A stretch of DNA of 46,952 nucleotides, from positions 1 through 46,952 of the IMG/VR virus record IMGVR_UViG_3300037189_018157, one strand, 5' to 3'. A program made the position numbers and the translations under genes. The DNA is from a virus. A model generated the notes under the pieces. It had not been told where the DNA came from. It saw only the letters and a program-made list of their open reading frames with translations, and searched no databases. Shown here piece after piece: positions 6,413 to 26,640 of the stretch (its first letter is position 1; every line of letters starts with the position of its first letter).

Positions 6413-6417
6413 GTTTT

Positions 6418-6987
6418 CTAAGGATATTCTGACGACGCAACTGGTTCGACAACCACTTCACCGAATCCCGACAACTTGCCGGTGGTGACTTCGCTATGAC
6501 CGTATAATCGAGTGTCACCACAAACGCAAGCGTTTCCTTGGACTCTCGCATATCCGTGTACTCGGGCTGACTCATAAACCTGGCCTGAGTCGAATACTTG
6601 TGCATATCCGCCAACTCGACAATGCCCAAATAACCAGCTATGCCCGAACAATTGCGCGTAGCCATTTACAACTGCATACCCGGCTATTAATGTGGAGCCA
6701 CGCACGCGAGCATAACCTTCTACTTTAGCATAACCATATACAGCTGCGAAGTCGTATACTTGAGCATTCTCACCTATTACAGCTGAACCATACACGTTGG
6801 CCTTATTGTATACACACGCATTTTCTTTTACCCAGCAATCACCTTCGTGCGCTAGATTCGACTCTTGCTCAATCCAACCTCCAAGTTCGCCTTCGCTGAT
6901 TGACCCAAAGGGTTTTAGAGCCTGAATTTGATGTAGGGTTATACCATCAATTACTCTAACCTTATCTGTCAGCTTATACTTTTTCAT
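6418..6987 (-). CDS. YdcK-like left-handed beta-helix protein
   Basis: A 189-aa protein made largely of imperfect hexapeptide-type repeats from about residue 45 to 180. Units such as YGSAVI, YGYAKV, EGYARV and HGYARV recur, the signature of a left-handed beta-helix. The N-terminal segment GGWIEQESNLAHEGDCWV closely resembles the equivalent segment of the E. coli YdcK family as I recall it. YdcK has a solved beta-helix structure and no settled function, although some relatives are annotated as acyltransferases. No transferase active site is evident here. The gene sits in the replication operon between a 117-aa unknown and the primase, with only 5 bases before the primase start. Confidence 0.75.
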   Translation of the reverse strand: MKKYKLTDKVRVIDGITLHQIQALKPFGSISEGELGGWIEQESNLAHEGDCWVKENACVYNKANVYGSAVIGENAQVYDFAAVYGYAKVEGYARVRGSTLIAGYAVVNGYAQLFGHSWLFGHCRVGGYAQVFDSGQVYESARVHGYARVQGNACVCGDTRLYGHSEVTTGKLSGFGEVVVEPVASSEYP

Positions 6988-7341
6988 TTAAAAAACTAAG
7001 TCGTCGTCTTGCAATAACCCAATTTGCTTACCTTCGTTGTCGGTGACAAGCACGCTCACGGGATTTTTGTCTTCAACAGCCTTAGCTAGTTTATTAACAC
7101 ATTCTTTATCGAAGAACATTGGAGTATCACCATGACGACAAAGCTTTTTGACGCATTCAAAAGCTTTTGCCAAATCTCCACGCATAGCGATAACATCTTC
7201 TGCCATGTAACCAGTTAATTTGCGAATTTCTGCGTCTGTGATACTGGTGTCGATCTGTAGATTTAGAATGGCATCAAAGACGTTACTCTCGTAATTCTTA
7301 ACGAGTTCATCTCTGGTACGGATAATTGGGAAGTCAGTCAT
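6988..7341 (-). CDS. Unknown small protein
   Basis: A 117-aa acidic, helical protein with two cysteines (CVKKLCRHG near 63-71) and no recognised domain. The stop abuts the start of the beta-helix gene. The start overlaps the 51-aa gene upstream by 4 bases (ATGA). The tight coupling on both sides supports it as a real gene. Confidence 0.8.
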   Translation of the reverse strand: MTDFPIIRTRDELVKNYESNVFDAILNLQIDTSITDAEIRKLTGYMAEDVIAMRGDLAKAFECVKKLCRHGDTPMFFDKECVNKLAKAVEDKNPVSVLVTDNEGKQIGLLQDDDLVF

Positions 7342-7493
7342 AATGGTGCTAATTCATCTATCATGCTCTGCAGTGTGGCTTTTAATTTTTCAGAATCGGC
7401 TTTGACATAATCCTGGATATCTTCCACCACTTCCTCGTCCAAATTAGACAGGAGATAGGTCAAAGCGTATTTTACTAATTCAATTTTTCGCAT
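7338..7493 (-). CDS. Unknown 51-aa acidic protein
   Basis: A short gene filling what would otherwise be a 150-base gap. It starts at ATG 7493 (MRKIELVKYALTYLL) and ends in TGA overlapping the next ATG by 4 bases. The product is acidic and helical (NLDEEVVEDIQDYVKADSEK), with heptad-like spacing that would suit a small coiled coil. I see no family match. The overlap geometry, identical to its neighbours, is the main evidence that it is translated. Confidence 0.7.
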   Translation of the reverse strand: MRKIELVKYALTYLLSNLDEEVVEDIQDYVKADSEKLKATLQSMIDELAPL

Positions 7494-7497
7494 ATCT

Positions 7498-7680
7498 TTA
7501 CGTTGTTATAATTAAATAAAAATGTCCTTCATCGAGAACATCTATTGTGTCGGGATTCGCGATTTCAGAATCTACAACCGGTAAAAACTCATCGCGTGTT
7601 TCGTCGTATACTGTGACAGTATCTTCAAGTCTCTCCGGAGGTAGCGTATTTAGTTTTTCAATTAATTGTTTATAATTCAT
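7498..7680 (-). CDS. Unknown 60-aa protein
   Basis: A small acidic protein starting MNYKQLIEKLNTLPPERL and ending in a beta-like FYLIITT. The pattern 'LIEKLNTLPPERLEDTVTVYD' is common in short phage and bacterial proteins with a two-strand, one-helix layout, but I cannot assign a function. It overlaps the 112-aa gene upstream by 4 bases and lies 4 bases before the 51-aa gene. Confidence 0.75.
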   Translation of the reverse strand: MNYKQLIEKLNTLPPERLEDTVTVYDETRDEFLPVVDSEIANPDTIDVLDEGHFYLIITT

Positions 7681-8015
7681 TTTTTATAGATGGCTGTTGA
7701 CCAACAGGTCATTGATTCTGGATAAAAACCTGCTTTATCCAATTCTTGTTTTATTTCGCGGTAAGAAGCGCAATCGTGCATAAGATTGAAGAGATACGCC
7801 AGATCTCCCCCGTCGTGCACCACGATCAATACGGAGCCATCTCCGTAACTTTCTCCGCGTTCTTTCCAAGTAGTCGGTGAGTAGAAAGCTTTGCAGCCTC
7901 CCGTATCTGTCATCTCGTGTTTCTCTACGTAATTTACAATTACCTTGTATGCCTCGCGTCCATCGACGGTCAGATCCATAGGCTTATGCAGATCTGGATT
8001 TTCCGGTCTTTTCAT
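7677..8015 (-). CDS. Unknown 112-aa protein
   Basis: A soluble protein of 112 aa with aromatic and cysteine positions (GGCKAFYSP, HDCASY, MTCWSTAIY) and a central SVLIVVHDGGDLAYLFN segment that looks like a beta strand followed by a helix. I have no domain assignment. It overlaps the SF2 helicase stop upstream and the 60-aa gene downstream by 4 bases each. Confidence 0.8.
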   Translation of the reverse strand: MKRPENPDLHKPMDLTVDGREAYKVIVNYVEKHEMTDTGGCKAFYSPTTWKERGESYGDGSVLIVVHDGGDLAYLFNLMHDCASYREIKQELDKAGFYPESMTCWSTAIYKK

Positions 8016-9472
8016 ATTTTTTCTTCGTAAGTAAGCCAGTCAATTTCTGAGGGGTTATTAACATACTTAATAATCCAACCCTGTTTCCTATAATGTTCTA
8101 CGCGCTTAGTTGCTAGGTCTGCCAGTCTGTCATCGTGGTTATCCACGAAGTCAATCAGAACGAAGTGCGTCTTTTCATCTACACCAAGCTCTGCTCTCCT
8201 TTCTTCAGGAAGAGTACGGCTACCTCTTAATGCTTCTTGGATACATTCGATTTCGCTAGAACCAGAAGAAGCCTGTATCACTACGCGCAACTGTGGGATG
8301 TCTACACCTGCTCGGAATGCATCAGTACCAATCAAGAACTGAAACTCATTGTTTGTAAATTGCCTGATGATTTCATCTTGCTGTTTAGTGCTTAAGGCAT
8401 AAGTTCCTATTTTCTTCTTACTACTTTCTCTATGAATATATTTTGTATCAGCAGGCATCAGCTTATATAGCTCTACCAGATGATCTTGAATATGATCTAC
8501 AAATATTAATGTAGGCCATTTATTCGGCACCAAGGAGCAAATCTTTGCAATCAACTGATTTCTTGGTTTGCACTTTTTAACGCCTTGAGAAAGTTTACCT
8601 TCAAAGGTAGTGGAGGAGACTAGATACTGGGGGGTTCTAACCATATATACTACACCTGGTACGACCGCTCCTGCACTTTGCGCTTCCAGGTATGGTACCT
8701 TGATTAGTCTTTCTCCGAACAGCCCAGTGAGCAATTTATCTGCCCCGTTGAACAAACCTTCATCTGTAGCTGTATAACCGAAAATCCTTTTCGGCTTAAT
8801 GCTTGTCAGCACGTCCTGAATCACCTCACCGGTGGTTCCCTGCATTTCATCAATCAGCATCAATTCACATTTCTCAATTGCACACTTGGGTAGCGATTTG
8901 AAAGTAGTGATAGTGATGTCGGTGCTTATGTCATTATACCCACCACCCACTCGACCTATGTGTTTTTCGGGGAATAGTTTTACAAACTTTTCATAAGTCT
9001 GAGTAAACACCTGCTTTAGCGGAATTGCTAGAATTGTGTTTAGTGTATTCCATGCTGCATATGTGAATGCCTGACAGTACGTCTTGCCGTAACCGCCAGC
9101 CGCCAACCATACACCCGAATTAACTGTACCTTTAGATAACCCGGATACGAGAGCATCAATCTGATAATCTCTAGGACCGATTTGTTTTATTCTATTCCAG
9201 TCAATCTGAGGTAACGCTGTTCGTTGGTCATCCACCACAAACGTATCCATGTTTTTATGTATACGTTTGCATACTGCTTCAAAGAAACCCTGCAGAGTAT
9301 ATGAGCCGCCAGCTCCATCGGGTGTATGAAGTAATCTTTCTTCAAAAACCGGAGTTTGCTTCCAGTTTTTCATTTTCATCGACCTGTGACTATACTTTAA
9401 GTATTTTTCTAAATACGGAGGACAGGGATTAATATGTAGCCCGCCGTCTATGCGAGTAAGTTTAATGTTCAT
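8012..9472 (-). CDS. Superfamily 2 DNA helicase
   Basis: A 486-aa helicase of the UvsW/DEAD-like SF2 class. Visible motifs in order are a Q-like region (GPRDYQIDAL, 99-108), Walker A GGYGKT (126-131), Walker B/II LIDEMQ with D208, motif III GYTATDE (232-238), motif V IGTDAFRAGVDIP (381-393) and motif VI QEALRGSR (412-419). Such phage helicases work in recombination, branch migration or origin melting; which of these applies here is not shown. The start at 9472 lies 6 bases after a perfect GC-rich hairpin, and no Shine-Dalgarno is visible between them. The gene is coupled to the 112-aa gene downstream. Confidence 0.9.
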   Translation of the reverse strand: MNIKLTRIDGGLHINPCPPYLEKYLKYSHRSMKMKNWKQTPVFEERLLHTPDGAGGSYTLQGFFEAVCKRIHKNMDTFVVDDQRTALPQIDWNRIKQIGPRDYQIDALVSGLSKGTVNSGVWLAAGGYGKTYCQAFTYAAWNTLNTILAIPLKQVFTQTYEKFVKLFPEKHIGRVGGGYNDISTDITITTFKSLPKCAIEKCELMLIDEMQGTTGEVIQDVLTSIKPKRIFGYTATDEGLFNGADKLLTGLFGERLIKVPYLEAQSAGAVVPGVVYMVRTPQYLVSSTTFEGKLSQGVKKCKPRNQLIAKICSLVPNKWPTLIFVDHIQDHLVELYKLMPADTKYIHRESSKKKIGTYALSTKQQDEIIRQFTNNEFQFLIGTDAFRAGVDIPQLRVVIQASSGSSEIECIQEALRGSRTLPEERRAELGVDEKTHFVLIDFVDNHDDRLADLATKRVEHYRKQGWIIKYVNNPSEIDWLTYEEKI

Positions 9473-9619: not shown

Positions 9620-9786
9620 TCTGTGATTGGGGTTTTCTTGAATACACGATTCCAGACAACAACACTCAACTCTTTAAGTTTAAGTGTAGTTGTAATTATT
9701 CCATTCTTTATTGCCTTTCTGGCTTCTGGCTTTTCAACTAGATAGTTAATTGTCAGGCCCACCGCAATACTTGTTAGTTCAATCAT
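9616..9786 (-). CDS. 56-aa mini-protein with hydrophobic N-terminus
   Basis: The ATG at 9786 overlaps the SbcC-like stop by 8 bases. The product starts MIELTSIAVGLTINYLVEKP, a short hydrophobic segment followed by a charged region (EARKAIKNG) and a second mildly hydrophobic segment. I recognise no family. Together with the 35-aa gene it fills the 300-base interval between SbcC and the SF2 helicase. Confidence 0.6.
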   Translation of the reverse strand: MIELTSIAVGLTINYLVEKPEARKAIKNGIITTTLKLKELSVVVWNRVFKKTPITE

Positions 9787-11839
9787 TTTTTAGTTCTATC
9801 ACATTATCAACCACTTCCGCTATTTGAGGGTCATGGTCAATAATGAGTATTTGTTTAAGTTTAGATTTAGCCTTTAGACCTTTGATCATATCAAAGTAGG
9901 CTTTCCTGTTGTCCGAATCTAAATGAGTAGTCCCCTCGTCAATAACCATCATTGGAAATGATTGGCTGAACAAGTCATGCAAAGACAGGTGTAAACACAA
10001 GCCTATAGCTATCTCTTGTCCCCCAGATACCGACGGTAGAACCCTCTCCTGCTCATCACTGACTTCGATGTTAAAACTATCCGCAACTTTTGCAGTATAC
10101 GGAAAATCAAACATCTTAAGATTCTCCTGCAAATAATCAGTGACTACATTCGCATAGCTCATAATTAACTTCCTGGGAAATTGTGAGCTATGTAGTACGT
10201 CGTAAACCTTATTCAGAGTTGCGACATATTTATTACGAGCTGTATTTTTTTTATTATTTGTTTCTGCTGTGGCGATCCGATTATTAAGTGAATTTAATTC
10301 GTTGAGCTTTACTTGTAACTTAATATCAAGTTGTTGTTTCGCTCTGCTCAGTGTGTTATTTACGTTTAACTGCTGATTTAGATTATCTAATTCGTCAGAT
10401 GGAGAATCACAGCGATCGTATTTAGTAAGTGAGTTTAGCTCAGTTTTAACTGCCTCATGCTTGCCGTGTGCGCTTTCCAATTTAAGTTCCAACTTATTCT
10501 TGTCATCTGAAAGTTGGTCATACTCCTGAATTACTTCGGAAGTCATATCCAACATCTTCTGATCGAAGTTTATATTCTTAAATTGTTTTAGGCTTTCGGT
10601 AAGCTGCTGCTCTTTAAGAGCAACTGAACTATAAGCCTGCTCTAGCTTTTGTAACCTATCTAAGTCTGCCGTTAGCTTCTGCGCTTTTAATTCTTCACTT
10701 CTCTTTTCCTCTTCAAGAGAAGCAATCAAAAGATTAAGCTCGGCCACATGAACATCTAAATTACTTACGTGTTGTTTGCAGGTTGGGCAAACTGCGTGGT
10801 CTTTTAGATTTAAAGAAGTATTTAATTCTTCTTTTGAGGTTAATAATTTATTTGCTGTAACTGCAAGTTCTCGGTTAATAGCATCTAGACCAACACGGGC
10901 AGTTGTGATCTGTCGTGTTACCTCGGCATACTGGTCTTTAGAGATCGGATATGCTAGCTTACCAAATTGAGCCAGTATGATTTCCTTTTGCTCGTGTAAC
11001 CCCTTCTGCTGCAGCAGCGTATTATTGACAAGCTTGTACTTGTCGATTGCTATGGAACTCAATCTCTCAAGTATATCTTGCAATTGAGTATCTAGTGCTT
11101 CGCGACTTAGGTTGCTGGCTTGAAGCGCGACGGCTAACTCTGTTTCCTTTTTAGAATCGGCTATACACCGTTCTACATAATGAATTCTTTTCTGGATATT
11201 TTTTAAAGCCAGGTCATCCAAGAGGTTATACTCCGCTAGTTCCAGCCGGAATTGCTCGACCTCTATCTTTACACCTTCTTTTGCTTCTTCTAATTCCACT
11301 TTAGACTCTTCGGGAATTATCGGTGGTGCCTGTTTGATATAGTCTTTCCAAACTATATTGCGCAGTTTATCCGTTTGGGGTACTAGGAAGATTCTTTGCC
11401 AGACCTTTTCTCGGACAGCTGTATCACCTGAAAACATATCAGGTATGTGCCCCTGTCTAGCAATGATTACTCTTTTAAGAATCTCTGAATTTAGCTGTAA
11501 CAGCTTGTCCCAGATTTCCTTAACCTCGGTGGATTTTTTATACTCAGTTCCATCGTAGGACAAGTTCACTTTGGAAACATCTAAATGTCTCTCAAGTCTT
11601 CCATGCTTACCGTTTAGGATAAAAGAACCAGCAACGTAACCCGTTGCAGAATCTAGGTTAATTGCCTGATCCTTTGATCCATCGAATAAATCACCAGTTA
11701 GCAAAAACTGAATCGCCTCAATGATAGACGACTTACCAGTGCCGTTTCTTCCAACAATACCGGTAACTCCCTGCTTTAACTTGATATGCAGTTTCTTATG
11801 CTTTCTGAAATTCGATAACCAAAGGTCAGTCAGAATCAT
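9779..11839 (-). CDS. SbcC/Rad50-like ATPase subunit (T4 gp46-like)
   Basis: A 686-aa SMC-like ATPase that pairs with the SbcD-like nuclease encoded just upstream for DNA end resection and recombination-dependent replication. The N-terminal Walker A is GRNGTGKSS (30-38). Long coiled coils flank a zinc hook CPTC at 351-354. The ABC signature SGGQE lies at 605-609, Walker B MMVIDEG at 630-636 and the D-loop HLD follows. It is shorter than bacterial SbcC (about 1050 aa) but near T4 gp46 (560 aa), as expected for phage versions with short coiled-coil arms. Its start overlaps the 64-aa gene by 4 bases. Confidence 0.93.
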   Translation of the reverse strand: MILTDLWLSNFRKHKKLHIKLKQGVTGIVGRNGTGKSSIIEAIQFLLTGDLFDGSKDQAINLDSATGYVAGSFILNGKHGRLERHLDVSKVNLSYDGTEYKKSTEVKEIWDKLLQLNSEILKRVIIARQGHIPDMFSGDTAVREKVWQRIFLVPQTDKLRNIVWKDYIKQAPPIIPEESKVELEEAKEGVKIEVEQFRLELAEYNLLDDLALKNIQKRIHYVERCIADSKKETELAVALQASNLSREALDTQLQDILERLSSIAIDKYKLVNNTLLQQKGLHEQKEIILAQFGKLAYPISKDQYAEVTRQITTARVGLDAINRELAVTANKLLTSKEELNTSLNLKDHAVCPTCKQHVSNLDVHVAELNLLIASLEEEKRSEELKAQKLTADLDRLQKLEQAYSSVALKEQQLTESLKQFKNINFDQKMLDMTSEVIQEYDQLSDDKNKLELKLESAHGKHEAVKTELNSLTKYDRCDSPSDELDNLNQQLNVNNTLSRAKQQLDIKLQVKLNELNSLNNRIATAETNNKKNTARNKYVATLNKVYDVLHSSQFPRKLIMSYANVVTDYLQENLKMFDFPYTAKVADSFNIEVSDEQERVLPSVSGGQEIAIGLCLHLSLHDLFSQSFPMMVIDEGTTHLDSDNRKAYFDMIKGLKAKSKLKQILIIDHDPQIAEVVDNVIELKND

Positions 11840-12030
11840 AGAAGAGAAGCCGGAAGTTCTACAGAGTCAACAAGCTCGTTCAATGCTTGATCTATCTTGG
11901 CTTCCAACGCAGCGAGACCACTATTAGGTTTATATTCAGCTTCGTATGAACGAGTTAGCACTGCTGGGCTGGACTCGGTCAGTTCAAAATACGTCTCGAG
12001 CATATCAAACAGATTTTTTACATTCTTCAT
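11836..12030 (-). CDS. Unknown 64-aa protein between SbcD and SbcC
   Basis: A small acidic helical protein (MKNVKNLFDMLETYFELTE, then a leucine-rich C-terminal helix). It overlaps the SbcD-like stop and the SbcC-like start by 4 bases each, so the three genes form one coupled unit. It might be a small accessory subunit of the nuclease complex. This is inferred from position alone. Confidence 0.75.
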   Translation of the reverse strand: MKNVKNLFDMLETYFELTESSPAVLTRSYEAEYKPNSGLAALEAKIDQALNELVDSVELPASLL

Positions 12031-13127
12031 TTTGTTTCTAGTATTTCCTTTTTGAAGTTATCTAACGTTAGTTTTGGATCTTCAGTTTTTAACATTTCAA
12101 AAACGAGATCGAACACTTCTTGCTCTTGAGCACATTCTTTCAACGTACTCTCAATTCGGTCATTAGTTTTTAATTCTGATCGAATGTTAATCGTTTCCTT
12201 CTCTGTGGTCTTTTCACAGGCTCTGGTCGTAGACACCCTTACAATGCCCACTTCATAAAGCCTAGCTATGTTTGGTAGTAGGTCTTTTTCTTCTTTGGTG
12301 TATTCGACCAAGAACACAGGTTTCTTGCCCGGATTTTCAGTATAGAATTTAGCATACTTCTCAACCCAGTTGATAGGTTCAAAAGATTCTCCTAAATTTA
12401 ACCTGATGAACTGCCTATCGAGTTTAAATGGAACACGCTGCAGTTCAGTTCCATCAAAATACAGTACGCCTTCTTTGTGTTCTATCTCGTCCGTCTTTAC
12501 GACACCCAGGCTGCCACAGTATCCAACCCACTGCCTAGGTCTGAGCATGGCTGGATCTTCAATATACTCAAAACTGGGGTTATGAATATCACCCAGGATA
12601 AATCCCTTCAAATTAGGAAATTCATTAATTGAATCTATTGATTTAATATCCAGCTTCTTTTTGTCTTCACAGAACGGAAACAACTCAGGAACCTGACCAT
12701 GCAGAAACACCCATTTCACTTTTTGCTTGTTGGGTAGGTCTTTGAGCTTCTGGATGTTGTCTGCTGAATTGTCCGTATAGTCAAATCCTACAAACTCGTC
12801 TTTTTGCAGTTTGTTTATAGGTATGACTCCTGCAAGGTGAATCCATGCGGCGTCGTTGACTGGCTTGTCGTGATCTCCGGCAATCCCGGCTGTATAGATA
12901 TTTTTATCATACAGCCGGGATACCTGAGATCGTACAAACGCGATTAGATCTGGAGATGGTTTATTCGTATCAAACAAGTCTCCGACAATGAACAGGTAAT
13001 TTACCTGTAGTTCAATTGCCAGATCACAAGCTCTTACAAAATTATCTTTTAAATCTTCTGCAAGCTCTGGAAGATTGAATAATTTCCAGCCTAAGTGTAT
13101 GTCCGATATTGCGATAAATTTATTCAT
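12027..13127 (-). CDS. SbcD/Mre11-like nuclease subunit (T4 gp47-like)
   Basis: A 366-aa calcineurin-like phosphoesterase, the nuclease partner of the SbcC-like ATPase. Metal-binding motifs are visible in order: SDIH (D9, H11), GDLFD (49-53), GDHD (84-87), H143 in FLHGQ, and GDIH (179-182). The third motif is usually GNHD and the last is usually GHxH, so two positions differ from the family norm. The remaining 180 residues would form the capping and ATPase-contact regions. The start overlaps the 150-aa gene upstream by 8 bases. Confidence 0.9.
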   Translation of the reverse strand: MNKFIAISDIHLGWKLFNLPELAEDLKDNFVRACDLAIELQVNYLFIVGDLFDTNKPSPDLIAFVRSQVSRLYDKNIYTAGIAGDHDKPVNDAAWIHLAGVIPINKLQKDEFVGFDYTDNSADNIQKLKDLPNKQKVKWVFLHGQVPELFPFCEDKKKLDIKSIDSINEFPNLKGFILGDIHNPSFEYIEDPAMLRPRQWVGYCGSLGVVKTDEIEHKEGVLYFDGTELQRVPFKLDRQFIRLNLGESFEPINWVEKYAKFYTENPGKKPVFLVEYTKEEKDLLPNIARLYEVGIVRVSTTRACEKTTEKETINIRSELKTNDRIESTLKECAQEQEVFDLVFEMLKTEDPKLTLDNFKKEILETK

Positions 13128-13572
13128 CAGCTACATATTCGCGCAAAATGTGATCATATCTACGTAGTTCTATGATACCTGAATCCAGTAACTCGTTTGC
13201 GAGTTGCCTAGCTTCTTTACGTACATTCTTGAATATCTGCACTCTAACTGAATAACCGTCCGCGGCGGCGTCGCCTAATGCTTCTATTTCTGCTCTTCCG
13301 ACGTAATCGTAATGTACACCACTTAGTTGCGCCAAGAATTCTTTAATTTGTACACCTCGACTCAAGAAGTAAACAAAGTCGGTAATGGCACCACCCTTAG
13401 TGGCGTAAACTTTTATTGCGCCGGTGAACCCAAACGGTTCATTATTCATAAAATAACACCAACCCCAACGAGGGGTAGTTGGTCTTCTAGTAAGAATAAT
13501 TTCTTTTATATTTTCTATGAGGGTTTGATTATAAAAAGTATATTCAACTTTCTTTGGTTTTCTTTTCGCCAT
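13120..13572 (-). CDS. Unknown 150-aa basic protein
   Basis: It begins MAKRKPKKVEYTF with a basic N-terminus, then an aromatic-rich strand region (RWGWCYFMNNEPFGFTG) and a mostly helical C-terminal half. It has no recognised domain. The composition would suit nucleic acid binding, but I see no motif for it. It overlaps the 109-aa gene upstream by 29 bases and SbcD downstream by 8. Confidence 0.8.
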   Translation of the reverse strand: MAKRKPKKVEYTFYNQTLIENIKEIILTRRPTTPRWGWCYFMNNEPFGFTGAIKVYATKGGAITDFVYFLSRGVQIKEFLAQLSGVHYDYVGRAEIEALGDAAADGYSVRVQIFKNVRKEARQLANELLDSGIIELRRYDHILREYVADE

Positions 13573-13873
13573 GATGTAATCCAGCTGCTAATCTGTTTAG
13601 AAACAAAGTTTCAACGTATTCCTTTTCAATAGCTAAAGCAGCTTCCCTAGTAGCCGCCGTAGCCACTAAGGGCCAATCTTTCTCAGGTATCTTCGAGTTG
13701 AGAATATCGTCTGGGGGGATTTTCACCCCCCAGACTTGATACTCATTATCGAATTCAACATGAGATGCGCGTTGAATGTTACGAGTTCCATAGTCCAGTA
13801 TATTACCAAACTTTTCATCGTACAGCCCCAACACGTTTCCCAGCTTATCGACAAAGATGCGCCTCTTAGCCAT
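13544..13873 (-). CDS. Unknown 109-aa protein
   Basis: I place the start at ATG 13873 (MAKRRIFVDKLGNVLG). It overlaps the DUF2997 stop by 8 bases and is preceded by GGAGCAGGAATCAG, one of the few purine-rich leaders in this operon. A longer frame reaching 13939 would overlap DUF2997 by over 70 bases and is less likely. The protein has a beta-rich first half (VDKLGNVLGLYDEKFGNIL) and a helical C-terminus rich in alanine. Family unknown. It follows the Ycf46/Ycf35/DUF2997 block and may belong to it. Confidence 0.75.
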   Translation of the reverse strand: MAKRRIFVDKLGNVLGLYDEKFGNILDYGTRNIQRASHVEFDNEYQVWGVKIPPDDILNSKIPEKDWPLVATAATREAALAIEKEYVETLFLNRLAAGLHHGEKKTKES

Positions 13874-14066
13874 CTGATTCCTGCTCCAGCGTTTGTTCGG
13901 GAAGTTGCTCATAATAACTCGGAGTGAGTTGTCTGGCATCTTCCTTTACACTACCAAGCATTTTCTCAAATTGTTTGGTGGCTTCTAGGCAGTTTGTGCC
14001 TGCTCCGAGCACATCCATGATTTTTGGGTTCCCGGATTTATCAACCATAATACGGACGATTGCCAT
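13866..14066 (-). CDS. DUF2997 family protein
   Basis: A 66-aa protein. The start at ATG 14066 comes one base after the stop of the 84-aa gene; a longer frame to 14168 would overlap that gene by 100 bases and lacks the family start. The sequence MAIVRIMVDKSGNP, then a strand, then TNCLEATKQFEKMLG, matches the DUF2997 pattern (beta-rich start, then a conserved CLEAT...LG helix). In bacteria DUF2997 genes are commonly found next to DUF1257/Ycf35 genes and a Ycf46-type AAA+ ATPase. All of these occur here, which strengthens the call. Function is unknown; a small ubiquitin-like or ferredoxin-like fold is possible but not shown. Confidence 0.8.
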   Translation of the reverse strand: MAIVRIMVDKSGNPKIMDVLGAGTNCLEATKQFEKMLGSVKEDARQLTPSYYEQLPEQTLEQESDG

Positions 14067-14067
14067 A

Positions 14068-14322
14068 CTATGCGTAGGACCAACTTTCAGGCATAAACCT
14101 CTTCTTGTCATCCAAGGAGAATTTGATCCTGATGCTGTGTTGCTTGCGTCCGCACCAATCCACGACAAACCTCACACTGGCATACATGAGGTTTTCGTCC
14201 TTGTCATATTTGATGCTATCAATGGGAACGAAGATGTCATCCGCTTCATGCGGGGCATCAATTTTCCTGAAGTGATGATAGATGTTTGCCGACAGTAGTT
14301 TTAGTTCTGGAACAGTTAGCAT
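14068..14322 (-). CDS. Unknown 84-aa protein inside the Ycf46/Ycf35/DUF2997 block
   Basis: It begins MLTVPELKLLSANIYHHF, followed by acidic and beta-rich segments (DIFVPIDSIKYD, MYASVRFVVDWCGRK). It has one cysteine and no clear motif. It lies 12 bases after the DUF1257 gene and its stop touches the DUF2997 start, so it should be a partner in the same module. No family assigned. Confidence 0.75.
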   Translation of the reverse strand: MLTVPELKLLSANIYHHFRKIDAPHEADDIFVPIDSIKYDKDENLMYASVRFVVDWCGRKQHSIRIKFSLDDKKRFMPESWSYA

Positions 14323-14334
14323 ATTTTGTTTGGT

Positions 14335-14721
14335 TTATTGACCGTCATCTGCGACGAGGATGTATGACCCATCCTCGAATGTTTGTTCAATCATGACATT
14401 ACAAAAGTTTTCTTCTGTAACGGCGTTAACGTACTTTTTCTTCAACTCTGAAAACTCAGTACCCAATGACTCTATAATTCTTCCTGGGCGAAAGAAATCA
14501 CACTCCAGGATAATTCCGTCGTCACCGACTACAATACCTACGTCGTATCCGTTAGCAAACGTATTCCGAGCAAGAAGCTTGAATACTTTTTCCCTTGCTG
14601 GATCCGAGTAGTAGGTATTTAATTTTGAGTTTTCTGCAATAGACCAACCCAGGTTCTCGAACGCCTTTTTCAAGGCGCCGAGATTCCTGAATTCGGTTCG
14701 GATTGGAACCGAGTGTGACAT
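14335..14721 (-). CDS. DUF1257 (Ycf35-like) protein
   Basis: A 128-aa protein beginning MSHSVPIRTEFRNLGALKKA, matching the DUF1257/Ycf35 start pattern (MSHF..IKT...D...L..AL..LG). The middle GYDVGIVVGDDGIILECDFF fits the conserved 'dIGf...dG.yelvaD' core, and the C-terminal helix ends the domain as in the family. Ycf35 is a conserved protein of cyanobacteria and red-algal plastids with no settled function. Its start overlaps the stop of the DUF3150 gene by one base (TAATG), so the two are translationally coupled. Confidence 0.85.
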   Translation of the reverse strand: MSHSVPIRTEFRNLGALKKAFENLGWSIAENSKLNTYYSDPAREKVFKLLARNTFANGYDVGIVVGDDGIILECDFFRPGRIIESLGTEFSELKKKYVNAVTEENFCNVMIEQTFEDGSYILVADDGQ

Positions 14722-15788
14722 TAGACGTTGAACTTACGGAAATATTTTCCGCGGATCGAGGATACGTCGCTGAACTTGTCGGTCTTGTCCATAACACACT
14801 TTAGTGCTTGGTCCAAGGTTGCTACTGCGTTCTTGTCGGTCTTGAAGTTGTGAGCTCCGTCAAGAAGCTTCTCCAAACGTTCAATCTCACTTGATACTGC
14901 CGTGTCGTCGAGGAAGTTCAACGCATGGAAGTTAGCGATCTCAGCTTTGATGCTGCTGATGTTCGACTTGGATACAATCTCACCAGATTTGATTTTCTGG
15001 GTGATCATTTCGCAAGCTGAGAACAGCTGACCACGCAACGACTGCACAGCGTCTTCGGCGAACCGGTCGATCTGCTGCAGGGAGCGACGGTGCTGATCCG
15101 CCAGCTGGGCTTCCAGCTTTTTCTTAACTTCAACTTCAGCTTGATCACGGGAGATCAGGTCCTGAATATTTGTTTCTTCCAATGCACGAGGCATCGTAAG
15201 CTCAAACACCGAAGTGGAGAACGCGAACTTGTGCTCGAGTTCTGCCGCTGTTGGATAGAGAGAACGCAAGACTTCCTTGATGTCTTTGTATTCCTCATGG
15301 GCTAGTACGGCCTCTTTATAGGTTTCGTAATTTGCCAAGAAGTCTCGCTTCTGAGCAAAGAATTCACCGCGTATTTCATCGAGATGGTCGAACACCGCAC
15401 TCAGGCGCTTCTTCGGGACGAAGTGTGCGTCTGCAATCGGGAAATCGTAGCTGTTCTTGTACAGATACCGACGACCTTTGCTTTCAATATTTTTGAACAC
15501 ATTAAGCTGCTCAGGATCAATAAGCATTTTTTTACCTAGCTTGATGAACTTGGAGACCTTCTGAATCTTCAAGTCATCTTCACTCAAGTTGGCACTCATG
15601 CCCCATACCGAGACATGAATGTTTACCAGATACCCGTCCTGGAACAACTTGTTATACCGTTCCCTGAGGGCGTCAGAGATGTTCACGGAGTCCACGTTGT
15701 TACGGGCTCCGACCTGTGCAGTGTGAACCACCACGTTGTTGTTCTTCAGCGGGTTTTCAATGACAACTGTATCGTTTGTATCAGACAT
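14721..15788 (-). CDS. DUF3150 family protein with central coiled coil
   Basis: A 355-aa protein. After a variable N-terminus, the segment DGYLVNIHVSVWGMSANLSEDDL, then GKKMLIDPEQLNVFKNIESKGRR and YDFPIADAHFVPKKRL, fits the DUF3150 pattern. That family occurs in phages and bacteria, often beside an AAA+ ATPase. Residues roughly 215-260 form a charged coiled coil (QAEVEVKKKLEAQLADQHRR). The likely role is a partner or substrate adaptor of the AAA+ protein encoded directly upstream, one base apart. Its length is typical of the family. Biochemical function unknown. Confidence 0.75.
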   Translation of the reverse strand: MSDTNDTVVIENPLKNNNVVVHTAQVGARNNVDSVNISDALRERYNKLFQDGYLVNIHVSVWGMSANLSEDDLKIQKVSKFIKLGKKMLIDPEQLNVFKNIESKGRRYLYKNSYDFPIADAHFVPKKRLSAVFDHLDEIRGEFFAQKRDFLANYETYKEAVLAHEEYKDIKEVLRSLYPTAAELEHKFAFSTSVFELTMPRALEETNIQDLISRDQAEVEVKKKLEAQLADQHRRSLQQIDRFAEDAVQSLRGQLFSACEMITQKIKSGEIVSKSNISSIKAEIANFHALNFLDDTAVSSEIERLEKLLDGAHNFKTDKNAVATLDQALKCVMDKTDKFSDVSSIRGKYFRKFNV

Positions 15789-15789
15789 A

Positions 15790-17367
15790 TTAGGAGTTTA
15801 GTTTACGGGTTTTAACTGCGTAGTTTGTTTCGATTTCGTTAACGTTAGTTGCAAGACGAAGTCTACCTTCGACCTTATCTCGCATAGCTGCAATCTGCGT
15901 TTCATTGATTACGGCTTGCGGCGTAACACGTTTAATTTCATCAATTACATGATGCTGTTGTACTTCTTCATTCTCTGCAAATGCGTTAAACATTGCATCT
16001 TTGAAGACGTTATCGATTTCTGCGCCAGAAAACTTGTCTGCAGCTTTTGACAAAGCCACTGTATCAAAGTTTTCAATTCTTCTTCCAAACTTCTTAATCA
16101 CCACATTGAAGATATCTTCCTTATCTTCCTGACTTGGGAGGTCAACCCAGAACCACTCATCGAACCGACCCTTGCGGATCAATTCCATGGGCAAGATCAA
16201 ATGATTGTTTGAAGTTGCGATAATGAACGCCGGGCTCTTACGATCAGACATCCATGTTAGAATAGAACCGAACGACCTAGAGCTTGTGCCACTATCGCCC
16301 TGACCCGATACTGCACCAGTATTAAGATATTTCTCAACCTCGTCAATCTGCAATACGCAGCGACCGATCGATTCAACTGTCTTAATCATGTCTGCGAAGT
16401 TTTGCTCAGTTTCGCCGACATATTTACTGAACAGCTTGCCCAAATCTAGCTGGAACAGCGGGAAACCCAATTCGTTAGCAATTGCTTTACTAATGAGTGT
16501 TTTACCGCAACCGGCTATACCAGCAAGCCCGATACCCTTGGGGAACGGGAGCTTGTATTCTCTAGCTCGTGCCGAGAAGGCATGCTTCCGTGTTATGGCC
16601 CAGTCCTTTACACCTTCAAGCCCACCTACGTTATCGAAGGTGATATCGGTTTCAATGTAAGTAAGCAGTCCGCTCTTCTTGACCTGCTGGATCTTCTCCT
16701 TGAATACACTCTTAACGAAAGGAGGATTAAATCCTTTGTTAGTTACAAACGCTAGCGAGAAGGCATTCTCAATCTCGACATCGGTCATGCCCTTAGCCGC
16801 TTCTACGGCTGCTTCTCTAATCGTATTCGGGAGTTCCAACTTGTCTGTTTCTTCTTTACCTGCGTTTGCAGACTCATGAATAAACGACAGCTGCTCATTA
16901 ATAGCTTCGGTTGTTGGTAAGCTGAAATCCAGCAACTGAAATGCCTTGTTAAGCTCTATTGGAATCTTAACCAACGGAGCAATAACTAGAACACAACTAT
17001 TTACCGCCTTCAGCAAATCAGAGGCATTTTTGAATGCTCGGATAATTTGAAGCTTCTTAAGCGGATTATCAAACTGCAGATGAAAGTCCTTCAATACAAA
17101 GATTAACGGACGTTCTGAGTTTCTACAGCTATTGGCAATGATTGTGAATAAGCTTACGGGATCTTGCGAATCACCGATAGGTTTACTCATATTAAACTCA
17201 TCCACCTTCTCCCTCAAACCCAGCAGGCTATCCCACTCCATGATAGTATGGGTGGGGTTGAGGCTCTTGAATATATCATTACATACTCGCGATTCTTCGT
17301 GAGTAGAGATGTACAATGCACTGTAAGATGCATCAACATAGTTTTTTAACTCCTGTGTGAAGTTCAT
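15790..17367 (-). CDS. AAA+ ATPase of the Ycf46 type
   Basis: A 525-aa AAA+ protein. The N-terminal domain (YSALYISTHEESRVCNDIF, 15-33) matches the Ycf46 opening, in which a short strand is followed by T.EE.RV. The AAA+ core starts at FDNVGGLEGVKDW (244-256). Walker A is GIAGCGKT (283-290), Walker B VLQIDEVEKY (338-347), sensor 1 IIATSNN (382-388), and the arginine-finger segment RKGRFDEWFW starts at 398. A helical lid completes the core. Ycf46 is found in cyanobacteria, plastids and many other bacteria, and its function is not settled. The neighbours here are DUF3150, DUF1257/Ycf35 and DUF2997 genes, so this is the motor of a conserved module. An unfoldase or remodelling role is an inference from the AAA+ class. 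No protease domain is present. Confidence 0.88.
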   Translation of the reverse strand: MNFTQELKNYVDASYSALYISTHEESRVCNDIFKSLNPTHTIMEWDSLLGLREKVDEFNMSKPIGDSQDPVSLFTIIANSCRNSERPLIFVLKDFHLQFDNPLKKLQIIRAFKNASDLLKAVNSCVLVIAPLVKIPIELNKAFQLLDFSLPTTEAINEQLSFIHESANAGKEETDKLELPNTIREAAVEAAKGMTDVEIENAFSLAFVTNKGFNPPFVKSVFKEKIQQVKKSGLLTYIETDITFDNVGGLEGVKDWAITRKHAFSARAREYKLPFPKGIGLAGIAGCGKTLISKAIANELGFPLFQLDLGKLFSKYVGETEQNFADMIKTVESIGRCVLQIDEVEKYLNTGAVSGQGDSGTSSRSFGSILTWMSDRKSPAFIIATSNNHLILPMELIRKGRFDEWFWVDLPSQEDKEDIFNVVIKKFGRRIENFDTVALSKAADKFSGAEIDNVFKDAMFNAFAENEEVQQHHVIDEIKRVTPQAVINETQIAAMRDKVEGRLRLATNVNEIETNYAVKTRKLNS

Positions 17368-17846
17368 GATCTTTTAACCTTAATATACAACTGCGACGGC
17401 ATGTTATTGTTTTTGAAGTTAATCACCTCGTTCATTAGCGAAGCAATATTCTCCGGTTTGAAGTTAAACGCACGTAATAATCTTTTAATTACATAATGCG
17501 TGAGAAGCTCATCGGCATCAGCCGCCTCTCTGGAATATCTACTATTATTTACGGGATCCATTTGAGAAATTAAATAAGTTGCGTATCTAAGGAGCAGATG
17601 CTCGTTAAATACGAAATTATTCATATTCAATGGGATAAACGCAGGCCCAGTTGGAATTACCTCTGATGGTAAGTCCAACTTTGGTTTGGGCTTGCGGCCT
17701 CGCTTTTTAGGAACAGGTGGAGGCTCGTCTACAACTTTTGGTTGTTTCTTTACTGAGGCTTTTGCGGCTCTTACCTTTTTAACTTTAACTTCAACAACTG
17801 GAACTAACGGTTTTGGCTTATTCTTAGAACCTTTCGGTCGTCCCAT
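17364..17846 (-). CDS. AT-hook-like basic protein
   Basis: I start this 160-aa protein at ATG 17846, giving MGRPKGSKNKPKP, an AT-hook-like element. A longer frame to 17909 would overlap the 74-aa gene by 86 bases, against 23 with this start. A second basic element KKRGRKPKPKLD lies near residues 46-57, after a Lys/Ala/Val linker of the kind seen in histone-like tails. The C-terminal ~90 residues are helical and could form a domain (MNNFVFNEHLLLRYATYLIS). It may bind AT-rich DNA. The stop overlaps the start of the Ycf46-type ATPase by 4 bases. Confidence 0.75.
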   Translation of the reverse strand: MGRPKGSKNKPKPLVPVVEVKVKKVRAAKASVKKQPKVVDEPPPVPKKRGRKPKPKLDLPSEVIPTGPAFIPLNMNNFVFNEHLLLRYATYLISQMDPVNNSRYSREAADADELLTHYVIKRLLRAFNFKPENIASLMNEVINFKNNNMPSQLYIKVKRS

Positions 17847-18048
17847 ACATGTCGTTAATGTTAGCAAACTCCACGGCTGCTTCCTCGATGACGTGTGTCT
17901 CTTTGTCATCGAGCTCTAGTTCAATTGATACAGGAGCTGTCTGCCTATATCCGCGAACCGTACCTTTTTTGCCTAGCAATGAATTATCAAATAAATCCAT
18001 TTGCGCCACTACAACACGATCTCCAATTTTAAATCTCTTTTTGTTCAC
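17824..18048 (-). CDS. 74-aa protein with SH3/KOW-like beta layout, GTG start
   Basis: The start is GTG at 18048. The sequence FKIGDRVVVAQMD...GKKGTVRGYRQ looks like a small SH3- or KOW-type beta barrel (GDxVxV, then GxxGTVxG). Such folds bind nucleic acid or protein. The N-terminus overlaps the 49-aa gene by 20 bases and the C-terminus overlaps the AT-hook-like gene. The fold is inferred from pattern alone. Confidence 0.65.
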   Translation of the reverse strand: MNKKRFKIGDRVVVAQMDLFDNSLLGKKGTVRGYRQTAPVSIELELDDKETHVIEEAAVEFANINDMYGTTERF

Positions 18049-21792: not shown

Positions 21793-21880
21793 TGGCGGAC
21801 AGGGTGGGATTCGAACCCACGGTACCTTTCAGTACTACAGTTTTCAAGACTGTCGCAATAGACCACTCTACCACCTGTCC
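21793..21880 (-). tRNA. tRNA-Ser (anticodon UGA)
   Basis: Acceptor GGACAGG pairs with CCTGTCC and is followed by G and an encoded CCA. The anticodon arm is ACAGT CTTGAAA ACTGT, giving UGA. A long variable arm (TACTGAAAGGTA) is as expected for serine. The T-arm GTGGG TTCGAAT CCCAC is standard. It decodes UCA, and with U34 possibly more of the UCN box. Confidence 0.95.
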
Positions 21881-21882
21881 AA

Positions 21883-22101
21883 TTATCTTTCACCTTGAAT
21901 AATCTTTGAGGCGCTGTAATCGGCCTGTGATTGATCCGGTATATCGCTTAAATCAATCATATCATTCGGATCACCACCACGTCTAATATAATCTCTACCT
22001 CCGTCTACAAATACTGATTTGCATTTGCAGAATTTAAAATCATGCCTGTGTGTGGATTCGATTATATCATTACACTTTCTGCATTGTATTTTGTTAATCA
22101 T
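21883..22101 (-). CDS. Small zinc-ribbon protein
   Basis: A 72-aa protein with CRKC at 7-10 and CKC at 28-30, a likely zinc ribbon, followed by VDGGRDYIRRGGDP. This arrangement (IQCxxCxDxIES...HDFxxCxC...VDGGxDYxRR) is a recurrent phage and Gram-positive small protein family, DUF7695 if I recall correctly. Function unknown. It ends 2 bases before the tRNA-Ser 5' end and overlaps the 100-aa gene by 4 bases. Confidence 0.75.
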   Translation of the reverse strand: MINKIQCRKCNDIIESTHRHDFKFCKCKSVFVDGGRDYIRRGGDPNDMIDLSDIPDQSQADYSASKIIQGER

Positions 22102-22400
22102 TTGAGTACTGAAGAACTATGAGTTGTTATGTTTATCATTGCTCGTGCAATCTCATCCCAATTAATTCTATGACAAGTGGATGACAAAAGATCCTTTACG
22201 AATCCATCAGGTATTTTTTCTATATCCATAGATGTCTCAACATGCTCTTCAAAAGAAGCAGCCAAACTATCTATCATTTCATCCATATCCGCATCTGGCT
22301 TTTCTTTTACCAAGTTCTCGGTCAATGATAAAAACTGGGATTGATGATGCAGATTACAATTCCAAGTTTCCCAATTTGACCAACCATTATAAATGCTCAT
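22098..22400 (-). CDS. Small protein with YNGWSNWETWN motif
   Basis: A 100-aa protein beginning MSIYNGWSNWETWNCNLHHQ. The YNGWTNYETWN opening is seen in many short phage and bacterial proteins of unknown function. The rest is acidic and helical (EKPDADMDEMIDSLAASFEE) with a C-terminal CHRINWDEIARAMIN segment. It is coupled to the zinc-ribbon gene by a 4-base overlap. Confidence 0.75.
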   Translation of the reverse strand: MSIYNGWSNWETWNCNLHHQSQFLSLTENLVKEKPDADMDEMIDSLAASFEEHVETSMDIEKIPDGFVKDLLSSTCHRINWDEIARAMINITTHSSSVLK

Positions 22401-22405
22401 AATTT

Positions 22406-22591
22406 CTATTCTTCATTTTTTGGCAATTGCCATAAATCTGTTTCACCCCATTCGTCAATGACCGAGGAATAAATCATAAACCAGTTGTATACCGGATATA
22501 AATCCACACAGTCAAAATACAATGTTAGACTGATCATATGACCAATCCAGTACATGATTCGAGTGGGTAACCAAGCGATTAAGTATTTCAT
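22406..22591 (-). CDS. 61-aa probable membrane protein
   Basis: Start set at ATG 22591 (MKYLIAWLPTRIMYWIGHMI), 15 bases past the tRNA-Leu. The longer frame to 22672 translates the tRNA. The first 40 residues are hydrophobic and aromatic, enough for one membrane segment or a hairpin. The C-terminus is acidic (DEWGETDLWQLPKNEE). Function unknown. Confidence 0.65.
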   Translation of the reverse strand: MKYLIAWLPTRIMYWIGHMISLTLYFDCVDLYPVYNWFMIYSSVIDEWGETDLWQLPKNEE

Positions 22592-22605
22592 AATATATAA
22601 AGTAA

Positions 22606-22686
22606 TGCGGGGAGGGGGACTTGAACCCCCACGGTTTTCACCACTGGCTTCTAAGACCAGCGCGTCTGCCATTTCGCCATCTCCGC
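22606..22686 (-). tRNA. tRNA-Leu (anticodon UAG)
   Basis: Anticodon arm CTGGT CTTAGAA GCCAG gives UAG, which decodes CUA. A long variable arm is present, as expected for leucine. T-arm GGGGG TTCAAGT CCCCC is strong. The acceptor GCGGAGA/TCCCCGC has one A-C mismatch at the fifth pair. The discriminator is A and no CCA is encoded. Confidence 0.92.
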
Positions 22687-22715
22687 TTGTTACTTATCTA
22701 TAAACTTAATTATTT

Positions 22716-23123
22716 TTATTTCAAGGTTTTTTGATGCTTGCGTAGAGTTTCAGCTTGAATCTCCATTAGTAATTCGAACTCCGCTCTACGAGGGGTATTT
22801 CTCATTTGATCTGCTGAGATTTTCACCAACCGGAAACTCTCGGTTGTTTGTACGTATTTTTTCTTAGCAACCATATAGTTATAGTACTCCTCCACTTTGT
22901 GAAGGCGCATTAATTCGGATCTGCGTTCCCAACCGATGTCAGGGTCCCAACTTAATGAAGTATACGCTATTTTAAACGTAGCATACGATTGTCCCTGGCT
23001 ATGCCCATCACGTAACTCATGTTCAGTAATTTTTACAATTACTCCTGGGCGCTGGATGGTATTACACGTTGTGACAACCAAATCACCTACATATAATTCG
23101 TTATTAAAATGATCTATCGCCAT
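22716..23123 (-). CDS. Unknown 135-aa protein, paralogue of the next gene upstream
   Basis: A beta-rich N-terminal half (LYVGDLVVTTCNTIQRPGVIVKI, then FKIAYTSLSWD) and a helical C-terminal half. The arrangement GDLVV...V.KI....KIAY, followed by RRSELMRLHKV, parallels the 97-aa protein at 23104-23397 (GDLIIHS...VREI...KIAYPVEI...RIRKSSLRSAQVV). I read them as diverged duplicates of an SH3-like domain. The two genes overlap by 20 bases. Function unknown. Confidence 0.75.
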   Translation of the reverse strand: MAIDHFNNELYVGDLVVTTCNTIQRPGVIVKITEHELRDGHSQGQSYATFKIAYTSLSWDPDIGWERRSELMRLHKVEEYYNYMVAKKKYVQTTESFRLVKISADQMRNTPRRAEFELLMEIQAETLRKHQKTLK

Positions 23124-23397
23124 TACTAATTCTTTCTTGAAGGTTTCTGTATTCGTTTGCTAATTCTGTAAATTGCCAATTTTGCATCGCGTCTATTGGC
23201 ATCTTTACTACTTGTGCTGATCGAAGTGATGATTTTCTAATGCGATATAATCCATCTACTATTTCTACTGGATACGCGATTTTTAATTTATCATCGCAGA
23301 TTTCACGAACCACAGAATAAGCCAGCAATCCTCGACCGGCGGAATGAATAATTAGATCACCCGGCGCTAGCGGATTATCAAATATATCTTTGTACAT
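23104..23397 (-). CDS. Unknown 97-aa protein, paralogue of the following gene
   Basis: Start set at ATG 23397 (MYKDIFDNPLAPGDLIIHS), 5 bases past tRNA-Val. The longer frame to 23436 translates the tRNA. It shares the GDL(I/V) start, the KIAY segment and a basic RKSSLR element with the 135-aa neighbour downstream. A small beta-barrel domain is likely by pattern. Function unknown. Confidence 0.72.
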   Translation of the reverse strand: MYKDIFDNPLAPGDLIIHSAGRGLLAYSVVREICDDKLKIAYPVEIVDGLYRIRKSSLRSAQVVKMPIDAMQNWQFTELANEYRNLQERISNGDRSF

Positions 23398-23402
23398 AAA
23401 GA

Positions 23403-23477
23403 TGGTGGGCGGTGAGGGATTCGAACCCCCGACCAACTGCGTGTAAAGCAGCCGCTCTACCCCTGAGCTAACCGCCC
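23403..23477 (-). tRNA. tRNA-Val (anticodon UAC)
   Basis: Acceptor GGGCGGT pairs with ACCGCCC, followed by discriminator A and an encoded CCA. The anticodon arm GCTGC TTTACAC GCAGT gives UAC, decoding GUA. The D-arm (TAGCTCAGGGGTAGAGC) and T-arm (GGGGG TTCGAAT CCCTC) are standard. Confidence 0.95.
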
Positions 23478-23486
23478 ATTAAAGTT

Positions 23487-23876
23487 TTAGATTAAATCGT
23501 CTTCGTCCTTAGAGTCAATCAAATCTGACAATTCGGACATGATTTGTTTGCTAAGTTCTATACCCAACTTGGTTAGGGCTTCATAAATTTTAGGCATCGC
23601 TGCTAAAATTTCTTGTCCCGTTTCTGATGTATAGAATTCAATACTTGCATCTAGTGCTTCTTCGGATAATAGCTTGTCATATACAGAAACTTGTTTTTCT
23701 GTGAACTGCTCATATTTCTTGTTAATCTTATCTAGCACTCTATCCTTTAATCTAAGGATGTCTTCTTCTTCCCCATAAATAGGAAGTTCGTCAACTTTTG
23801 TTCTAAATGCACTTTGTAGGTCTGTGCTTATAGACGTGAACTCAATTAATAATTTGATCTTATCTGCTTTGTCCAT
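23487..23876 (-). CDS. DUF2059-like protein
   Basis: A 129-aa soluble helical protein. The segment VSVYDKLLSEEALDASIEFYTSETGQEILAAMPKI fits the DUF2059 core (Y...ls.eel...i.FY.s..Gq.l....P). Cellular members are often secreted; no signal peptide is seen here. The acidic tail ends DSKDEDDLI. Function unknown. It lies between tRNA-Val and tRNA-Pro. Confidence 0.65.
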   Translation of the reverse strand: MDKADKIKLLIEFTSISTDLQSAFRTKVDELPIYGEEEDILRLKDRVLDKINKKYEQFTEKQVSVYDKLLSEEALDASIEFYTSETGQEILAAMPKIYEALTKLGIELSKQIMSELSDLIDSKDEDDLI

Positions 23877-23892
23877 GTGTTAGACTGTTTGA

Positions 23893-23968
23893 TGGTCGGG
23901 TCGAGAGGACTCGAACCTCCGATAACTTGCTCCCAAAACAAGTGCCATAGCCGCTAGGCGACGACCCG
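23893..23968 (-). tRNA. tRNA-Pro (anticodon UGG)
   Basis: Acceptor CGGGTCG pairs with CGACCCG; discriminator A and an encoded CCA follow. The anticodon arm CTTGT TTTGGGA GCAAG gives UGG, decoding CCA. T-arm GGAGG TTCGAGT CCTCT is acceptable. Confidence 0.95.
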
Positions 23969-23972
23969 ATGA

Positions 23973-24059
23973 TTATTTGATTCCTAGGAATACAATTCCC
24001 AGTAATATGTAACATAACATTAAGCCTAATGCTATGATTAATTTTTGCTGTTTACTCAT
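23973..24059 (-). CDS. 28-aa membrane mini-protein (doubtful)
   Basis: An ATG at 24059 opens a frame for MSKQQKLIIALGLMLCYILL plus a short tail, a single hydrophobic helix with a basic N-terminus. It fills the space between the terminator at 24060 and tRNA-Pro. The ATG follows the terminator T-run directly, so it could be read only from transcripts that escape the terminator or are started inside it. Treat it as possible. Confidence 0.35.
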   Translation of the reverse strand: MSKQQKLIIALGLMLCYILLGIVFLGIK

Positions 24060-24103
24060 AAAAAAACTTGAGCCGACTACCAAAGATTTTCAGTAGTCGG
24101 CTC
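24060..24103 (-). terminator. Strong intrinsic terminator after the 349-aa gene
   Basis: On the minus strand GAGCCGACTAC and GTAGTCGGCTC form a perfect 11-bp stem around a 12-base loop, followed by AAG and seven T. It lies 24 bases past the 349-aa gene stop and should end its transcript. Confidence 0.9.
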
Positions 24104-24127
24104 GTAAATTTACTTAATATATTATTA

Positions 24128-25177: not shown

Positions 25178-25257
25178 ATTAACAATATTAACATTTTAAT
25201 GTCTTTGCTCAAGTAGTTTCTTCACTAGCAAAAAAATAATAATACAATTAACTTACA
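25178..25257. promoter_or_regulatory. Divergent AT-rich spacer, probable promoters both ways
   Basis: Eighty bases separate the starts of the minus-strand 349-aa gene and the plus-strand 422-aa gene. The spacer is over three quarters A/T with a run of seven A and repeated AATATTAAC-like blocks. Both genes must start transcription near here unless read-through serves them. I cannot fix -35/-10 boxes with confidence. Confidence 0.4.
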
Positions 25258-26631: not shown

Positions 26632-26640
26632 TGAGAAGAA

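Follow-up and report, generated by a model that had tools for sequence, protein, structure and literature searches.

A compact block of genes centered on a Ycf46-type AAA+ ATPase lies on the minus strand of the window, by which we mean the whole 46,952-base record of an uncultivated virus (IMG/VR IMGVR_UViG_3300037189_018157). Probably, though far from securely, the block encodes a transferable, virus-carried AAA+ protein-remodeling machine, consisting of a Ycf46 motor and a Ycf35/DUF2997 core, supplemented in most viruses by a DUF3150 protein and a small protein that we call P6, and expressed together with replication genes. The minus-strand gene run begins with an AT-hook-like gene and continues with AAA, DUF3150, Ycf35-like, P84, DUF2997, and P6. 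Block genes either overlap or are spaced 1–12 nucleotides apart: a single nucleotide separates AAA from DUF3150 and P84 from DUF2997, DUF3150 and the Ycf35-like gene overlap by one nucleotide, and P6 overlaps DUF2997 by eight, so that the block runs on into a sixth gene. An initial annotation, made from the sequence alone, had described five consecutive, tightly spaced genes from AAA to DUF2997. All five are real and lie on the minus strand where it put them, with the natural ATG of DUF2997 corrected from 14168 to 14066; the sixth, P6 (13544–13873), was overlooked.

The motor candidate is a protein of 525 amino acids (15790–17367) that matches Pfam AAA at 1.3e-25 and phrog_8638 at 9e-129, the latter over residues 3–521. 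Residues 1–507 align with proteins of cyanobacteria, planctomycetes, and other bacteria at about 31%–34% identity (E-values down to 2e-88), with the best bacterial matches coming from Cyanaurora, Thermoguttaceae, Fischerella, and Tychonema. Judged by this full-length homology, which takes in the N-terminal half, the ATPase is of the Ycf46 type. Its motifs are intact: Walker A (GIAGCGKT, 283–290), Walker B (VLQIDE, here placed at 338–343), sensor-1 (N387), and arginine fingers (R398/R401), and the key residues are invariant in ten phage relatives. The initial annotation had already pointed to the Walker motifs and an arginine-finger segment. Other identities were tried and set aside, namely IetA of the antiphage system IetAS (64 bits versus a cut-off of 510, with no protease among the scanned neighbor genes), FtsH (88.4 versus 600 bits, no protease domain), and CDC48 (87.8 versus 802.65 bits). 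The sequence gives no support for a degenerate, Cdc48-like AAA domain in the N-terminal half.

Inserts of about 0.3–1.1 kb break up the AAA gene of related phages, at the codons of Walker A or Walker B or further downstream (loci L049, L051, L052 at 6001–8429, L054 at 4055–6732, L062 at 3315–5236, and L048 at 2076–4735). Several of these inserts carry HNH- or LAGLIDADG-like open reading frames (ORFs), as read from the sequence, and an Rfam search of the interrupted genes returned no known intron family. Mobile inserts of this kind sit in conserved genes, and their placement at Walker codons is thus a sign that the AAA gene is a conserved target. Matches to the abiF RNA (RF03085) are found a few kilobases upstream of the module in two of the same phages (L049, 1583–1619; L051, 1676–1713). 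The window's relatives also have a second, shorter AAA gene (370–392 amino acids), located some 2.3 kb upstream of the one in the module (L020, 2410–3588; L029, 2323–3435; and many of L020–L057). Two further loci, L227 and L228, have a Ycf46-like AAA without Ycf35 or DUF2997 in another conserved setting, beside proteins of 320 and 482 amino acids of no known family, the larger of which has a glycine-zipper segment.

For the small partners, the initial annotation had predicted direct Pfam matches, which were found for DUF3150 and DUF2997 as for the AAA domain itself, but not for the Ycf35 homolog. The DUF3150 protein (355 amino acids, 14721–15788) matches PF11348 at 7.9e-20 (71.7 bits; curated cut-off 24.9), as do 41 of 45 relatives, and is predicted to fold as an alpha/beta domain followed by long helices (AlphaFold2, predicted local distance difference test [pLDDT] 81). 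The Ycf35-like protein (128 amino acids, 14335–14721) has no direct match to PF06868, and tblastn with the window protein also returned nothing. It is placed through its family: PF06868 matches are found in 31 of its 52 aligned relatives, the protein is picked up at 1e-23 by a profile from which the window lineage was excluded, and hhalign pairs it with confirmed phage DUF1257 proteins at a probability of 95.5%. On these profile comparisons it is best described as Ycf35-like and diverged, and not as a Pfam-level DUF1257 member. Its predicted structure is compact alpha/beta (AlphaFold2 pLDDT 93). One alignment used for structure prediction left out seven rows that came from annotated phage records. 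The DUF2997 protein (66 amino acids, 13866–14066) passes the PF11211 cut-off (1e-5; 25.7 versus 24.1 bits), and 41 of its 42 relatives match. All 76 nonredundant DUF2997 sequences, whose sources include cyanobacteria, phages, and an archaeal virus, share one glycine and one cysteine.

The two remaining proteins have no Pfam match. P84 (84 amino acids, 14068–14322), of an unassigned family that has no PHROG match either, is confined to this phage lineage, where close relatives retain it (34 loci at E<1e-3) in a constant position between Ycf35 and DUF2997. P6 (109 amino acids, 13544–13873) was discovered by clustering neighbor genes, and its own hidden Markov model recovers it in 54 loci, including those of Pseudomonas phage SM1, Rhizobium phages, and Aeromonas phage HJ05. 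We also asked whether DUF3150 might go unrecognized in SM1, Rhizobium, Vibrio, and Corndog-type phages, in the form of the proteins of 200–320 amino acids that neighbor their AAA; profile comparison gave a best E-value of 0.015 (Corndog-type gp95), and the idea was dropped.

These families are found together again and again. Searches of IMG/VR and GenBank phages yielded about 140 viral loci, counted as loci and not as independent events, since identical or near-identical contigs are included; many virus records are fragments, and the profile families were built iteratively. ORF counts in this set are 76 for DUF3150, 83 for Ycf35, 74 for DUF2997, 54 for P6, and 34 for P84, and those of the first four families almost always adjoin a Ycf46-type AAA. 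The window order (AAA-DUF3150-Ycf35-P84-DUF2997-P6) is seen in 31 loci, about 25 of them distinct contigs. These largely share a terminase and SbcD as well, and the linkage within that lineage could therefore be simple inheritance. The association is better supported by the way the genes are reshuffled between far-apart branches of the AAA tree: at least eight gene orders occur, among them AAA-Ycf35-DUF2997-DUF3150, Ycf35-DUF2997-AAA-DUF3150-P6, DUF3150-AAA-Ycf35-DUF2997, P6-AAA-Ycf35-DUF2997-DUF3150, and DUF3150-Ycf35-DUF2997-P6-AAA. Four cultured phages (SM1, L338C, RHph_I4, and HJ05) have AAA-Ycf35-DUF2997-P6 without DUF3150. In Acidianus tailed spindle virus an AAA gene is followed by Ycf35 and DUF2997 genes, whose small products have no match in Pfam itself and are recovered by leave-out profiles at 1.2e-6 and 1.2e-7.

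An independent test was made in cells, where DUF2997 alone was searched in a sample of 594 genomes (294 from the planctomycete phylum and 300 from the Clostridium phylum), 40 loci of about 4–8 kb were fetched, and the other components were sought only afterwards. A Ycf46-like AAA was found at 35 of the 40 loci and Ycf35 likewise at 35 (within about 4 kb), while DUF3150 was found at 13 and P6 at 14; reversed-protein controls gave no hits in 14,402 proteins. The gene association is far beyond chance. Moreover, Ycf35 and DUF2997 are fused next to the AAA in two bacterial genomes, and in one of these both PF06868 (7.6e-5) and PF11211 (1.3e-9) match within a single protein of 184 amino acids. It has to be considered that unrelated small genes merely happen to travel together, and in the window's lineage gene order is indeed inherited along with the terminase and other genes. 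Yet the shuffled orders on distant branches, the independent recovery from cells, and the gene fusion speak against hitchhiking, and the DUF2997 survey contradicts it, making it very improbable.

Two forms of the module occur in the surveyed cells, a tight AAA-Ycf35-DUF2997 cluster and a longer Ycf35-DUF2997-AAA-DUF3150-P6 arrangement, the latter in the same order as in viral contigs L138–L142. One cellular locus of the longer type, L278, has neighbors that, from their sequence, look like tail tape-measure and tail-tube genes, which suggests a prophage. Among 17 bacterial genomes behind loci L144–L160, DUF3150 is found only in a Bacteroidota metagenome-assembled genome (MAG), at a locus that may itself be viral. 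Taken together, these two observations make the addition of DUF3150 look viral in origin. A planctomycete genome of 8.3 Mb (G499) holds seven copies of DUF2997, several in a viral-type module, and one module copy there is flanked by large ATPase-like genes resembling a defense island.

The initial annotation had anticipated that these families would recur with Ycf46 across phages and bacteria, and they do, often rearranged; its proposal of a transferable machine gains strong support from the many orders seen in viruses, prophages, and cells and from the Ycf35–DUF2997 fusion. Its statement that Ycf46, Ycf35, and DUF2997 cluster in cyanobacteria needs qualification. In the four cyanobacteria concerned, Ycf35 and DUF2997 stand beside a ferredoxin and Ycf46 is elsewhere, whereas in planctomycetes and some other phyla all three do cluster.

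The block lies among replication genes. Downstream of P6 follow a gene for 150 amino acids, an SbcD/Mre11-like nuclease (12027–13127; Pfam Metallophos 4.5e-8, phrog_100 3.7e-6), a small gene, an SbcC/Rad50-like ATPase (9779–11839; phrog_77 1e-45), a helicase, a primase, a DnaB helicase, and a DNA polymerase, which confirm the replication setting originally described. The module adjoins replication genes in SM1 and L338C as well. At the other end, the AT-hook-like gene (17364–17909, minus strand; relatives in 36 loci) overlaps the AAA start by 4 nucleotides; its product carries the GRP-type motifs GRPKGSKNKPK and KKRGRKPKPK without any profile match, so that the AT-hook part of the earlier description holds at the level of motifs.

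AAA proteins of Ycf46's class generally remodel proteins. This behavior, together with adaptor-like small partners that vary around a constant motor, makes protein remodeling the most likely activity. The Ycf46-type ATPase would be the motor, presumably as a ring, as its AAA class implies. Ycf35 and DUF2997, present in nearly every version of the module, viral and cellular, may act together as a conserved adaptor pair, and a physical complex of these proteins with the motor would be expected. DUF3150 and P6, with P84 in the window lineage, would be virus-specific subunits, most likely choosing or holding substrates or docking the motor on its target. Since the module is made with replication genes, its likeliest targets would be phage proteins active in replication or repair, or host proteins dealt with during that phase. 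Nucleoprotein remodeling or takeover, as raised initially, is a hypothetical role.

Several observations weigh against this picture. Threading unfoldases carry an aromatic pore-loop residue. The window AAA has it (KYVG), but it is not conserved and is replaced in most module AAAs, which read SLVG in 38 of 78 cases and SHVG in 10, and it is therefore uncertain that the motor works by classical threading. There is also an AAA-only clade, including the cluster of mycobacteriophage Corndog, in which DUF3150, Ycf35, and DUF2997 are mostly absent genome-wide, and the motor can thus work without these partners. Finally, fold searches of the PDB with the DUF3150 and Ycf35-like models gave no significant match.

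A different function is suggested by iron-sulfur (Fe-S) context in cells, which the initial annotation did not notice. The AAA with Ycf35 and DUF2997 might remodel, reload, or activate an Fe-S, radical, or other metal enzyme, a reading that we regard as rather unlikely but worth weighing; equally doubtful is its more specific form, in which the DUF2997 cysteine handles redox chemistry or a cofactor and viruses turn the system on a phage or host replication enzyme such as ribonucleotide reductase. The cysteine is certainly constant (76 of 76). Elsewhere DUF3150 keeps company with a CobT-like VWA protein and a CbbQ-type AAA, and this class has been connected with the activation of metal enzymes. 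A small radical-SAM protein (Fer4_12) adjoins the triad in a planctomycete, a Bacteroidales MAG, a rumen bacterium, and a Clostridium, and its gene is present in three viral contigs; NrdD was not recognized beside it. The four cyanobacterial genomes have DUF2997-Ycf35-[4Fe-4S] ferredoxin, matching the Synechocystis operon whose fed7 gene is induced by iron starvation (PMC4284462). Loss of Ycf46, which is stress-responsive in Synechocystis, reduces the activity of the carbonic anhydrase EcaB there (PMC7496141). However, the window and most module phages have no radical-SAM gene, and the survey found such a protein at only 3 of 40 loci. Fer4_12 genes are common in bacteria, and the association has to be read against that background. 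The ferredoxin profile had no hit in the viral loci, and the Fe-S neighborhood may pertain just to what the module does in cells. On these counts it is best taken as a hint that does not hold generally. A broader synthesis would make the Ycf46 motor and the Ycf35–DUF2997 core, with its invariant cysteine tied to Fe-S or radical chemistry, a widely shared machine older than the cellular/viral split, which phages and an archaeal virus later acquired. Most phages would then have added DUF3150 and P6 and coupled it to genome replication; we put this forward tentatively, as possible but not probable.

Could the remodeling machine serve instead in the contest with the host? An AAA complex that disarms or dismantles a host defense or host protein complex, with the SbcCD neighborhood and the accessory proteins reflecting an arms race, would fit the match of the AAA to the IetA profile at 9e-23 and the multiple DUF2997 copies in the planctomycete genome described above. 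That match, however, scores far under the cut-off and no protease partner is seen, and stable linkage to replication genes, like presence in cyanobacterial chromosomes, is more in keeping with a core function; we judge counter-defense unlikely. Less probable still is that the AAA works with SbcCD in DNA repair, or in packaging or the virion, and is not a general protein remodeler. The module and SbcCD do share an operon, SbcCD recurs in related contigs, and the related Corndog AAA-ATPase has been detected by mass spectrometry (PMC4351075), but SbcCD and the terminase recur mainly in the window's lineage and were not seen adjoining the module in distant carriers. The replication-stage protein remodeler is our preferred reading.

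Elsewhere in the window, positions 6418–6987 encode a protein whose GYA-type repeats recall a left-handed beta-helix, and it is probably this protein that clusters with repeat proteins adjoining the module in L138–L142. Six minus-strand tRNA genes are dispersed between small ORFs at 21793–26892, and a sigma-factor-like protein (phrog_351, 1e-18) lies inside the structural region at 39315–39956.

Ycf46, Ycf35, and DUF2997 are conserved in cyanobacteria and some plastids and have hitherto had no agreed function. Seen as a single unit, with a gene fusion and an invariant cysteine, these three separate puzzles become one testable machine, which phages carry, rearrange, and extend, and DUF3150 and the unnamed P6 family gain a context. 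In the literature searched, no paper mentions DUF3150 or describes an AAA/Ycf35/DUF2997 module in phages, and those naming DUF1257 or DUF2997 do not deal with such a module. SM1, L338C, RHph_I4, HJ05, and Synechocystis are systems in which the machine can be studied.

Among known systems, Ycf46 itself (slr0374 in Synechocystis, also in red-lineage algal plastids) shares full-length homology and intact AAA motifs with the window protein, the cyanobacterial proteins being 31%–34% identical to it. In cyanobacteria, however, it is encoded apart from Ycf35 and DUF2997, without DUF3150 or P6, and in Synechocystis it lies within a stress operon. The cyanobacterial DUF2997-ycf35-fed7 operon keeps Ycf35 and DUF2997 adjacent, as in the viral module, but its third gene encodes a [4Fe-4S] ferredoxin, which was not found near that module. 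A Salmonella genomic island (L014, AB571791) has DUF3150 near a CbbQ/CobS-type AAA together with the phage-type recombination genes bet and ssb, and thus provides another pairing of an AAA with DUF3150 on a mobile element; it differs in its AAA class, in its CobT-like VWA partner, and in lacking Ycf35 and DUF2997. The AAA-ATPase of the Corndog cluster (cluster O) belongs to the same family as the window AAA (about 31% identity over 94%), though it has no detectable Ycf35, DUF2997, or DUF3150 and the canonical aromatic pore loop is commoner in its clade. A further comparison is with the Rhizobium phages RHph_I4 and L338C, Aeromonas phage HJ05, and Pseudomonas phage SM1. Their modules lack DUF3150 and P84 and have other proteins of about 200–320 amino acids between AAA and Ycf35, but like the window they encode AAA, DUF1257, DUF2997, and P6 in that order, and the RHph_I4 annotation already names DUF1257 and DUF2997.

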